Source: a virus
DNA: 43,402 nucleotides
IMG/VR virus record: IMGVR_UViG_3300025853_000186
Span: 1 to 43,402 of that record
Reading direction: 5' to 3' (one strand)
Made by a program: the position numbers and the translations under genes. The notes beneath the pieces were generated by a model, which made no database searches, had not been told where the DNA came from, and saw nothing but the letters and a program-made list of their open reading frames with translations. Below are positions 11,420 to 37,983 of the stretch, piece after piece (the first letter of the stretch is position 1; the number at the start of each line of letters is the position of its first letter).

Positions 11420-11480
11420 ATCCCTAAGAGATCATTAACACGCCCTTATAGGGGTGGATCCCTTAGGGATACTTTATTTT
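11420..11480 (+). promoter_or_regulatory. Nested inverted repeats around the promoter; 5' leader hairpin or weak terminator
   Basis: ATCCCTAAG at 11420-11428 can pair with CTTAGGGAT at 11462-11470, enclosing the promoter. Alternatively ATCCC/GGGAT at 11458-11470 forms a compact hairpin, followed by the T-rich ACTTTATTTTT. The compact form could terminate transcripts from the lysozyme gene or cap the transcripts that start at 11451. A similar hairpin follows the promoter at 32092, which favours a leader role. Confidence 0.45.
11434..11450 (+). promoter_or_regulatory. Putative phage RNA polymerase promoter (rightward), +1 at about 11451
   Basis: Seventeen bases, ATTAACACGCCCTTATA, followed by GGGG. 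The layout (AC-rich recognition block, TATA, then GG at +1) mirrors T7-type promoters, and nearly the same sequence occurs at 36319-36335 on this strand and at 32109-32093 on the other. It lies in the 80-base gap before the nuclease-headed ejection protein. The matching polymerase would be the 712-residue enzyme encoded at 19687-21804. Confidence 0.65.
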
Positions 11481-35121: not shown

Positions 35122-35150
35122 GATATGTTCCTTTCGTGGTTGGTTGAGAC

Positions 35151-35196
35151 AAAAAAAAAAGAAAGAGCGCCCCCCACCGAAAACAGCAGGGAGCGC
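35151..35196 (-). terminator. Strong intrinsic terminator without A residues in its stem
   Basis: On the minus strand a 13-pair stem (35196-35184 with 35179-35167) closes on a UUUU loop and is followed by UCUUUC and ten U. Nine pairs are G-C and four are G.U; none is A-U, and no A occurs in stem or loop. It closes the A-poor transcription unit that begins near 36.28 kb and lies only 30 bases before the HTH gene start. Confidence 0.9.
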
Positions 35197-35235
35197 ACAG
35201 GCCTTAGAACGGGAATTCTTCACCGCCAGCCGCAG

Positions 35236-35640
35236 CTACGACCGGGGCGACACCAAACGGCTCAGACGACAGGGCGCGAAGTGCTGACCCGACCGACCCG
35301 CAACCGCAAGGAAGACAGGAGAGCCAGAAGCAACAGCTTCGCGCACAGCCGCAAGGAAAGACCGCGCAGCAGGAGACCCTTCGCCGCCAGGAAACCCACG
35401 CGACAGAGCTATGAAGGTTTCAGAGTGGCCTTCAACCGCGCAAGAAGCAGTTACCGACAGACCCTTCAGGCCGTTGTTCGAGGTGTACGGAGCAAGATCC
35501 GAGAGGATCACAGCCACGCCACCCGCTTGAGGCACGAAGGACGAAGACGGCACAGACTTCCCAAAGCCCAGAGAATAGGACTCAGGCACGAAGCCAGCAA
35601 CGGTTGAAACGACGGCGATTTGTGTGTTTGAGTTAGACAT
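35236..35640 (-). CDS. Hypothetical protein, 134 aa, in an A-depleted gene
   Basis: ATG behind GAAAGGAGC at normal spacing; stop at 35236, 40 bases before the A-free terminator. The first 60 residues look ordinary (MSNSNTQIAVVSTVAGFVPE); after about residue 75 the product is dominated by Ala, Ser, Val, Gly, Phe, Arg and Leu (AAVREAVASGSPVFLAVAG), because codons containing A are avoided. Plus-strand T falls to about 4 percent over 35221-35400. No family recognised. The gene is real by signals, but its sequence seems shaped by the nucleotide bias rather than by a protein constraint. Confidence 0.65.
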   Translation of the reverse strand: MSNSNTQIAVVSTVAGFVPESYSLGFGKSVPSSSFVPQAGGVAVILSDLAPYTSNNGLKGLSVTASCAVEGHSETFIALSRGFPGGEGSPAARSFLAAVREAVASGSPVFLAVAGRSGQHFAPCRLSRLVSPRS

Positions 35641-35793
35641 GTTAAGCTCCTTTCAAGAGCGTTAAGGGAAGACGCAGACGACCTCGCACCATTGCAAGGC
35701 CTGGCGGCAACCCACGAGGCGGCTCGGCAAGGGAGGAGAACCGAGACGCCACGAGGACAGCCGAAGAGCAACCCCCGCCACCCGAAGGCAGCA

Positions 35794-35819
35794 GGGGCAA
35801 GGCAGGGAAGCAGGGCGGG
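35794..35819 (+). other. G-quadruplex-type motif in the T-free block
   Basis: Four G runs (GGGG, GGG, GGG, GGG at 35794, 35805, 35813 and 35817) separated by loops of 7, 5 and 1 bases satisfy the usual G3+N1-7 rule on the plus strand. It may be a by-product of local G richness. Confidence 0.5.
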
Positions 35820-36302
35820 AGCTAACCCGCAAGCGCACGCGAAGAAGCCGGAGCCACGGCGCAGAACCACCGCGAGGAAGACCAGCCCGAACGAACGCCA
35901 AGGGACACCGGCGCACCAGAAGCACGAGCGGCGCGGAGAGAGGCAACCAACGCCGACACAGCTGCCGGAGACGACCGACCAACGCGACACGCCAGCGGAG
36001 CCGCAGAACCGGAGACCCAGACAAGGACAGAGCGAGAGGACGCACACCAGCCGAGGCGAGACACCACGGAAGGCCGAGACCACACGACACAAGAAAGAGG
36101 AGAAAGAGAACGGCAGACAACAGAAGAAGAAGACACGACAACACCCCCAAGAAAGGAAAGGAAGAAGGAAGGCCGCCGGAACAACCGACGACCCAGGAAA
36201 AGGCACGAAGCCCCAACCGCCGAGGACAGCGGGGGGGCCACGGGAACCAGCAAGGGGTACCCGCAGCGCTTCACATCTTTTTCTCTCATAAAGAAAAACC
36301 AT

Positions 36303-36318: not shown

Positions 36319-36335
36319 CTAAACACACCCTTATA
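36319..36335 (+). promoter_or_regulatory. Putative phage RNA polymerase promoter for the terminase/head operon, +1 at about 36336
   Basis: CTAAACACACCCTTATA followed by GGAAAA. It is identical to the minus-strand copy at 32109-32093 across AAACACACCCTTATA and very close to that at 11434-11450. The transcript would start 22 bases before the terminase ATG with an AGAGGA ribosome site in between. Confidence 0.7.
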
Positions 36336-36357
36336 GGAAAATTTAGAGGACAACTAA

Positions 36358-37983
36358 ATGAACAATAAACGTAAACTAGAACTTCTCAAAGAGGCAAAAC
36401 GTAGAGAAAAACTAGGGGCATACGAAAAAGATTTCGCTCTATTTTCAAAAGAACAAATTAGGATTATTACAAAGAATGCTTCACAGGGCTTTGTTCCATT
36501 TGAGTTTAATCACGCACAAGCTGTTGTTAATAAGCAAATTGAAGAACAACTACAACAAACAGGTAAAGTTAGAGCAATTATACTTAAAGCGCGACAACAG
36601 GGCATTAGCACCTATTGCGCCGCTAGAGTTTTTTGGAAGACATTCTTCACCCCTTATACTAGATCAGTAGTTATGGCGCATGATAGTGCTACCAGTGATG
36701 CTCTTTTCAATATGTCGCGTAATATTATTGATAACATGGAGGAACCTCCAAATCTACAAAAGAGTAATGCCAAAGAAATTTTATTTGAACATAACAAAAG
36801 TGGTTACAGACTCTACACAGCGGGTGCTAAAGAAGCAGGACGAGGAACTACCCCTACGATTGCCCACCTCTCAGAAGTTGGGTTCTGGCAATTCGACGAA
36901 CAAATCCTAGCAGGACTCTTCCAGGGAATTTCTCAAGAAAACGGTACTGAGGTACTACTAGAAAGCACTGCTAATGGAGCCAGTGGGGAGTTTTATCGTT
37001 TATACCAAGGGGCTATGAAAGGCGAGAATGAGTATATACCTATTTTCTTACCTTGGTTTATCACTTCTGAGTATCGTAGGACTGCTCCTGAAGATATGGA
37101 CTTAACCACTGAAGAATGGGAACTACTGGAGAAGTACGACTTAGATAACGATCAGTTATACTGGAGAAGACTAAAAATAGCAGAGTCAGGGGAGCGAAAG
37201 TTCCGTCAAGAGTACCCTGCGAGTCCCGAAGAAGCCTTTCTTGTCTCCGGTAACAGTGTTTTTGATCAAGAAGTCATTAATAGCATGCAAGTTATCGCTC
37301 CAGACTACGTTAGGGAGTATGACGATAAAAGTAGTTACTTCGAAGATGCTAAAGAAGGACATTTAGAGATATGGGTACCACCTTCATTTGAAGGTAGGTT
37401 TATTATTGGTGCTGATGTAGCACTTGGCGTAGGTCAAGACTACAGTACAGCAGTTATTCTTGATAAGGAGAGACGGGTTTGTGCGCTATTTAGAGATAAC
37501 TTCACGGATCCTAGTAACTTTGGTGATATTTTATTCTATCTGGGTAGATATTTCAATAATGCACTCCTAGCAGTAGAGAGTAATAGTCTAGGAATAGCTA
37601 CGCTTAACAGGCTTAAGCAGATGAACTATGTAAATCTGTATTATCAGACTAAAGCTGCTAATCTTCTCAACGAAGAGGGTGGAAAACCCGGTTTCAGGAC
37701 AACGGTTTCTACAAAACCTATGGTAATAGGAAACCTTAAACGAGCAATTGAGGAAGAAGACCTATGGATTCCCTCAGATGTTATGCTAGGGGAGTTAAGA
37801 ACTTATGTCTCAGCAGAAAACGGGAGTACTAATGCCCTCCCAGGAAACTATGATGATACTGTTATGGCTCTTGCAATTGCATTCGAAGCCTATAGAACAC
37901 ACCAGCATAGGTTAACTGACGATAATATATCTTGGAAAGATAAAGTAGGCCACTTAGTGGAGGAGAATACACAATGGCTATAA
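36358..37983 (+). CDS. terL: Terminase large subunit
   Basis: DNA-packaging motor: ATPase plus headful or end-cutting nuclease. Walker A-like KARQQGIST (77-85) follows AIIL; the Walker B region is THAHLSEVGFW-like (IAHLSEVGFWQF near 160). The nuclease domain has FIIGADVALGVGQDYSTAVI, LLAVESNSLG and NYDDTVMALAIAF, giving the three acidic metal-binding clusters. Length 541 is typical. It is the first gene of the rightward operon, 22 bases after the putative promoter start. No small-terminase gene precedes it; the gene after it is a candidate. Confidence 0.95.
   Translation: MNNKRKLELLKEAKRREKLGAYEKDFALFSKEQIRIITKNASQGFVPFEFNHAQAVVNKQIEEQLQQTGKVRAIILKARQQGISTYCAARVFWKTFFTPYTRSVVMAHDSATSDALFNMSRNIIDNMEEPPNLQKSNAKEILFEHNKSGYRLYTAGAKEAGRGTTPTIAHLSEVGFWQFDEQILAGLFQGISQENGTEVLLESTANGASGEFYRLYQGAMKGENEYIPIFLPWFITSEYRRTAPEDMDLTTEEWELLEKYDLDNDQLYWRRLKIAESGERKFRQEYPASPEEAFLVSGNSVFDQEVINSMQVIAPDYVREYDDKSSYFEDAKEGHLEIWVPPSFEGRFIIGADVALGVGQDYSTAVILDKERRVCALFRDNFTDPSNFGDILFYLGRYFNNALLAVESNSLGIATLNRLKQMNYVNLYYQTKAANLLNEEGGKPGFRTTVSTKPMVIGNLKRAIEEEDLWIPSDVMLGELRTYVSAENGSTNALPGNYDDTVMALAIAFEAYRTHQHRLTDDNISWKDKVGHLVEENTQWL

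Follow-up and report, generated by a model that had tools for sequence, protein, structure and literature searches.

In T7-like phages, the first early gene is variable and swappable, as is typical of counter-defence loci. To our knowledge, no T7-like early locus avoids one nucleotide. Attacks directed at a single nucleotide exist in toxins of the DarT type, which act on thymidine in DNA. A defence attack on RNA at A is documented for the adenosine-specific Csx1 (PMC7192623), and CmdT is an mRNA ADP-ribosyltransferase that acts in defence (PMC11618068). A search of the open-access literature found no report of A-free or T-free phage regions, and the description of Roseobacter phage CRP-7 (PMC6918029) does not mention composition in its passages on this phage. 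There is no published parallel that we have found to the locus described here, an early unit in a marine phage group that avoids a single base and contains a working protein gene.

The window, i.e. the whole stretch of 43,402 nucleotides that was analysed, is the record (43.4 kb) of a T7-like podovirus that encodes an RNA polymerase of its own, together with a primase-helicase and a DNA polymerase of family A. A zone with very little T on the strand presented, and hence very little A in the leftward RNA, is flanked by early genes read leftward on one side and by the terminase gene, read rightward, on the other (Table 1). The original prediction had claimed such a scarcity of T over 555 bases, and the count bears it out: the block contains 187 A, 174 C, 191 G and 3 T. 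The only T's are at 35724, 35823 and 35963, and T is absent over the 294 bases of 35964-36257. In comparison, the longest T-free run is 47 among 100 simulated genomes (first-order Markov, Markov-1, matched in composition to the window), and the binomial probability of three or fewer T in 555 bases is about 1e-77. The remaining T-free runs of the window are 58 bases or shorter, and any above 29 is also inside the T-poor zone. The block is not a simple repeat, which agrees with the earlier description. Unrelated A-free runs in L172 and L177 are simple repeats.

The depletion was placed correctly at the block, but the limits given for it were too narrow. The T-poor zone spans approximately 35146-36268, about twice the length first reported. 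The T content is 10.7% in 35146-35640, 7.1% in 35641-35822, 0.6% in 35823-36136 and 0.8% in 36137-36268, and it is 28% and 37% in the sequences flanking the zone.

Table 1. Features of the A-poor early unit and its surroundings (positions in the window).
Feature	Position	Strand	Basis
T-free block (A-free leftward RNA)	35703..36257	-	Base count
Whole A-poor early transcription unit (TU1 and second gene)	35146..36268	-	Composition by segment
GAAAAAGATGTG core, probable promoter/transcription start	36272..36283	-	Alignment of relatives; start inferred
Leader	36268-36137	-	Between core and GTG-start gene
Conserved leader element, GGGTACCC...GG(T/C)CCCCCC	36232..36262	-	Alignment of relatives; CRP-7 leader
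A-free gene, GTG start, 104 aa	35822..36136	-	Homologues, codon-position test, fold model, A count
G+C-rich hairpin past the A-free gene, terminator-like	35766..35797	-	Sequence
Conserved RNA hairpin upstream of second gene	35706..35762	-	Pairing and covariation, 12 versions
Second gene, paralogous family	35204..35640	-	Comparison with L002/L003
Terminator, G+C hairpin and ten-U run on leftward RNA	35152..35196	-	Sequence, composition profile
CCCTTATAGGA, probable phage RNA polymerase promoter, divergent late genes	36328..36338	+	Motif
Terminase large subunit, anchor for finding relatives	36358..37983	+	Homology

The A-poor unit extends from just inside the probable transcription start to the terminator. 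The highly conserved core is located just downstream of a TATGT-like box, and the A depletion starts right after it. Beyond the terminator, A is above 30%. As the depletion begins after the promoter core and ends at the terminator in the window, its limits are those of a transcript. The strand presented is, over the block, the template for the phage's first early transcription unit, which is read leftward. The leader, coding and intergenic parts are all A-depleted. The claim that one base is excluded in a strand-specific way is supported. The terminator-like hairpin past the A-free gene has a counterpart in relatives, where it is followed by a U run. We are highly confident of the anatomy of the unit and the reality of the effect, taken jointly. 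A CCCTTATAGGG motif is found at 11443 (+) and 32090 (-), and a copy that deviates by one mismatch is present at 36328 (+). Motifs of this type are probably the promoters used by the RNA polymerase that the phage encodes.

Most of the block is conserved protein-coding sequence on the minus strand. The A-free gene has a single A outside the stop codon in its 104 codons, and the stop codon accounts for the T at 35823. The translation has the form SLSPLS...RLGWCASSRSVLVWVSG...PLACRVG...LGVRSGW..RWFCAV. The gene has a homologue in CRP-7 (57608-57991), and further homologues, with 19-24% A, are present in L045, L056 and L060. Relative to the gene in L034, there are 28 differences at codon position 3, 7 at position 1 and 4 at position 2, corresponding to 25 synonymous and 9 non-synonymous codons. 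This predominance of third-position differences shows purifying selection on the protein. An AlphaFold2 model, calculated from 16 natural sequences, has a pLDDT of 82.7 and a pTM of 0.76, with the order beta3-alpha-beta2. The codon-position pattern, the homologues and this confident fold rule out the long untranslated leader that had been suggested for the block. A sequence search through the Protein Data Bank gave no match. Foldseek, with two of the cassette families, finds weak matches (best E values of 0.003-0.03, TM scores of approximately 0.4-0.6), the top ones being the B subunits of AB5 toxins, and only the general topology is common to both. The A-free protein is tentatively predicted to be OB-like in topology, from which neither a function nor a kinship with toxins is drawn. 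In three relatives (L130, L031 and L016), the first leftward gene extends beyond the first approximately 100 codons, and the extension contains a zinc-protease-like HExRH motif in L130 and L016.

The lack of stop codons had been expected to produce false genes, and an example is found in CRP-7. The annotation places CRP7_gp72 (L084 141-836; MK613349.1 57271-57966) on the other strand from the conserved A-free gene, and gp72 is likely a false gene that arose in this way.

The second gene is also A-poor (approximately 11% A). It belongs to a family that is related to that of the first gene, with the signature FVPES...FCALSSEPFG. The gene encodes 145 amino acids in L002 and L003 and is frameshifted in the window record. 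Compared to these near-identical sequences, one base is missing near 35277 (GGGCGCGAAG versus GGGCGCAGAAG), probably through a recent mutation or an error of sequencing or assembly.

The RNA hairpin upstream of the second gene has the layout CCUCGUGG-stem-(UU)CUCCUCCC loop-stem-CCUCGUGGGUUGCC. In its 12 different versions, which range from the window group to CRP-7, 96.7% of the cells are paired. Covariation had been proposed as a test for RNA structure, and here it gives a score of 0.378, compared to 0.172 in shuffles. The pairing is lost when the partners are shifted by 1 to 3 columns. The loop, CUCCUCCC, resembles an anti-Shine-Dalgarno sequence. With the Rfam model of anti-hemB, the hairpin scores 17.9 bits against a gathering cut-off of 49.5, and a scan of the window with Rfam finds no family at its cut-off. 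The hairpin is a candidate regulatory RNA in its own right. Homologous hairpins, with CCUCGUGG on both sides, precede early genes in L005, L012, L023, L050, CRP-7 and others. In CRP-7, the hairpin is part of the A-free gene's own leader.

A search with the terminase large subunit identified 80 related loci in IMG/VR. Of approximately 55 independent relatives, most share the A-poor property at this locus, as does the CRP-7 isolate, and the property is kept while the sequence changes, the outcome of the comparison by alignment that the original prediction had proposed. In the main group, among loci with enough upstream sequence, the leftward strand is A-poor directly past the core in nearly all. 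The conserved start region of the relatives consists of the TATGT-like box, AAAAAAGATGTG, and GGGTACCC...GGTCCCCCC. The A-depleted stretch ranges in length from approximately 75 to more than 900 bases, and at least four of the gene families in this slot are A-poor. Families in the slot that have A-normal homologues contain 19-37% A in those other phages. CRP-7 is the best match in the phage collection for both the terminase (61% protein identity) and the T7-like RNA polymerase (34%). Three CRP-7-like contigs (L097, L101 and L105) and CRP-7 have the same arrangement before their early genes. No such block is present in four unrelated Roseobacter phages (CRP-1, -3, -5 and -6), among which CRP-6 is on CRP-7's own host. 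CRP-7 has a tRNA-Arg with the anticodon TCT (L085 9670-9746), which reads A-containing arginine codons, and the window has no tRNA gene.

The property does not follow the phage lineage. When A-free status is mapped on the terminase tree, it requires 20 changes, compared to a mean of 17.7 for shuffled labels, and this scatter rules out inheritance of the trait with the lineage. Two pairs of loci (L040/L069 and L044/L045) have identical terminases and different A status. In L004, the terminase is 99% identical to that of the window and the promoter side is identical, yet the A-poor gene is a different one. Taken together, these observations indicate that the unit is swapped as a cassette, with the promoter as the point of exchange. 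In L050, the first two genes are A-normal and an A-poor cassette is located behind them; the two genes are newly inserted and the cassette is older. The unit is therefore a swappable early cassette among CRP-7-like phages, in which new arrivals are A-normal. Relatives with normal T at this locus, which had been put forward as evidence against the effect, do exist: L054 and L069 have no A-depleted stretch, and in five loci (L036, L041, L046, L048 and L051) the depletion is confined to the leader and the gene behind it is A-normal. The unit has been lost from these loci or another cassette is in its place, and they reflect swapping rather than the absence of the effect. Searches of bacterial genomes with the terminase and with family A4 found nothing.

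Twelve contigs (L009, L013, L014, L019, L020, L022, L026, L038, L042, L058, L059 and L063) end 1-90 bases before the terminase. These dozen or so ends, where the conserved promoter block has its edge, are probably assembly breaks in strain mixtures. In a relative of 57,850 bases that is classed as linear (G001, containing L253 and L254), the first 128 bases are repeated at the end, and this record is probably a complete genome that was assembled as a circle. As its self-closing 128-base overlap gives no fixed end, a genome end at the site of the block was rejected.

A has been removed from nearly all sites that do not need it. At four-fold sites, A is 0-1% in the A-free genes, compared to approximately 35% in the terminase. 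The A's that are left are mainly in Shine-Dalgarno sequences (GGAG), start codons (ATG contexts) and stop codons, together with some amino-acid positions. T is the commonest base at the four-fold sites of the A-free genes (46-81%). Because these sites are rich in T and not in G, the directional A-to-G mutator of the original prediction is not supported, and A-to-I (A-to-G) editing or hyper-editing of RNA or DNA was rejected. Adaptation to host codon usage was rejected as well, as T-ending codons stay high and the non-coding parts are also A-free. In half-depleted genes, most of the remaining A's are before A or G, and A before T is kept the least (0.42, with a bootstrap range of 0.22-0.60), while the base preceding the A matters little. 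GA is not preferentially avoided, and GA-specific ADP-ribosylation is not favoured as the sole cause. The residual T's of the template are kept more beside pyrimidines, which disfavours the avoidance of UV dimers. One protein family covers the continuum from A-normal to A-free. Inside three long genes, all of one family (L016, L031 and L130), A rises with the distance from the promoter (p ≤ 5e-4 for each). Such a gradient is absent in eleven other genes, and a general decay of the depletion with promoter distance was rejected.

We tentatively favour selection against adenosine in the early mRNA as the cause, most plausibly since something attacks RNA at A. With equal caution, the exchangeable early message, in which both the proteins and the RNA structures are written with three letters (C, G, U), may be regarded as an evolved escape from an adenosine-recognising activity. 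The RNA of the block, with its structured leader and the gene for a small protein, would be the first made after infection, and every A in this immediate-early message would have a slight cost if infected cells contain an activity by which RNA is cut or modified at A. Candidate agents would be adenosine-specific HEPN RNases, mRNA ADP-ribosyltransferases and toxins that act at A-containing sites. An A-free message would stay translatable and could provide the first phage protein under attack, and long-term selection would remove A's throughout the unit. We estimate that selection of a few times 1/Ne per site suffices at silent sites. An A-directed attack on RNA would be the most economical agent, as it explains the strand, the limits and the non-coding parts together. 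However, the early genes downstream of the unit are A-rich, a constant host attack would need to spare the four unrelated Roseobacter phages, CRP-6 included, and the A gradient within the three long genes would not be expected if the cost were uniform along the mRNA. A mutational cause would leave much the same sequence pattern and is nearly as plausible as selection against A. In this alternative, which we consider possible if somewhat doubtful, a transcription-linked, strand-specific mutator would change coding-strand A (template T) to any other base from the promoter on, with purifying selection keeping only the A's that matter and cassettes losing A with residence time. It would account for the replacement of A by all three other bases, the continuum from normal to A-free within one family, and a depletion that is anchored at the promoter and fades with distance in three genes. 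Among A-free homologues, moreover, G/T relative to C/T differences are about twice those of the terminase (the pairs are not independent), an excess of G/T as if changes went through A. On the other hand, a rate bias near 100-fold would be required, there is no candidate enzyme, and no reverse transcriptase (PF00078) was matched in the 43.4 kb record, which may be incomplete. In addition, the divergence at four-fold sites is not above that of the terminase, most of the fresh differences that separate L033 from L098 are C/T, and depletion persists without fading in the second gene of the window, at 630-1070 bases from the start.

The other explanations are weaker than selection against adenosine in the message. 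It is unlikely that the template strand is T-free because a modified, ADP-ribosylated or uracil-replaced T hampers the first transcription. With only the template strand mattering to the RNA polymerase, and with T altered by phage or host, the strand bias, the limits of the transcript and the non-coding parts would be accounted for. However, the annotated genes include no thymidine-modifying gene, only a dCMP deaminase, the later early genes have normal T, and UV dimers as the liability are disfavoured by the context of the residual T's. A unit built for transcription at a low supply of ATP or after its partial destruction, as by ATP-degrading defences, would explain why A alone is avoided, and the A run in the conserved core at the probable start makes an ATP-sensitive initiation conceivable. 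Translation and tRNA charging require ATP anyway, however, and the following base should not matter, yet A before U is the most avoided; we regard this explanation as improbable. Equally little weight is given to an avoidance of non-template A near the start that would remove all -10-like elements and thereby prevent sigma-dependent pausing and internal promoters in early elongation. The onset of depletion just past the transcription start, the strong avoidance of A before T and the fading in three genes agree with it, but the loss of every A over 600-900 bases, amino-acid changes included, is far more than it needs. An artefact of sequencing or assembly, a concern of the original prediction, or an ordinary by-product of codon usage has a negligible probability. 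An artefact is ruled out by the presence of the same feature in many independent contigs from different samples and in the genome of the isolate CRP-7, while for codon usage T-ending codons are common and the non-coding parts are affected.

The near-total avoidance of a base in a conserved gene, with amino acids rewritten, points to a very strong and very local pressure, of a kind that is not predicted by present phage biology. Either an A-directed defence, a phage strategy against several known defences, or a strand-specific mutator is at work, and the first or the last of these would be unknown so far. Both selection against adenosine and a mutator can be tested, as the isolate CRP-7 exists with cultured hosts. 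If adenosine is indeed being evaded, escape by dropping a base would be immune evasion at the nucleotide level. At a practical level, gene callers mis-annotate the A-free locus.

The locus shares features with several known systems. Diversity-generating retroelements (DGRs) also direct base changes at A on one strand. In contrast, the block encodes a protein that is conserved and not diversified, and its depletion extends to non-coding parts; a DGR was rejected, as no reverse transcriptase was found in the 43.4 kb record, which may be incomplete. The cuckoo/anti-hemB-type RNAs of Proteobacteria have a C/U-rich anti-Shine-Dalgarno loop similar to the CUCCUCCC loop of the window hairpin, but the latter is located upstream of a phage early gene. 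Csx1/Csm6, CmdT and MazF-like toxins would give a reason for avoiding A in an essential early message, although the context of the residual A's in these phages does not match the GA specificity of CmdT. CRP-7 resembles the window in that its first early gene and the leader are A-free and the RNA hairpin is present, and differs in having a larger gene set between the terminase and the early unit. The early accessory and counter-defence loci of T7-like phages (gene 0.3 region) are similar to the unit in that they contain the first genes behind the early promoter, and in being small, variable and swapped between close relatives. The product of the first gene would likely be a counter-defence or takeover factor.
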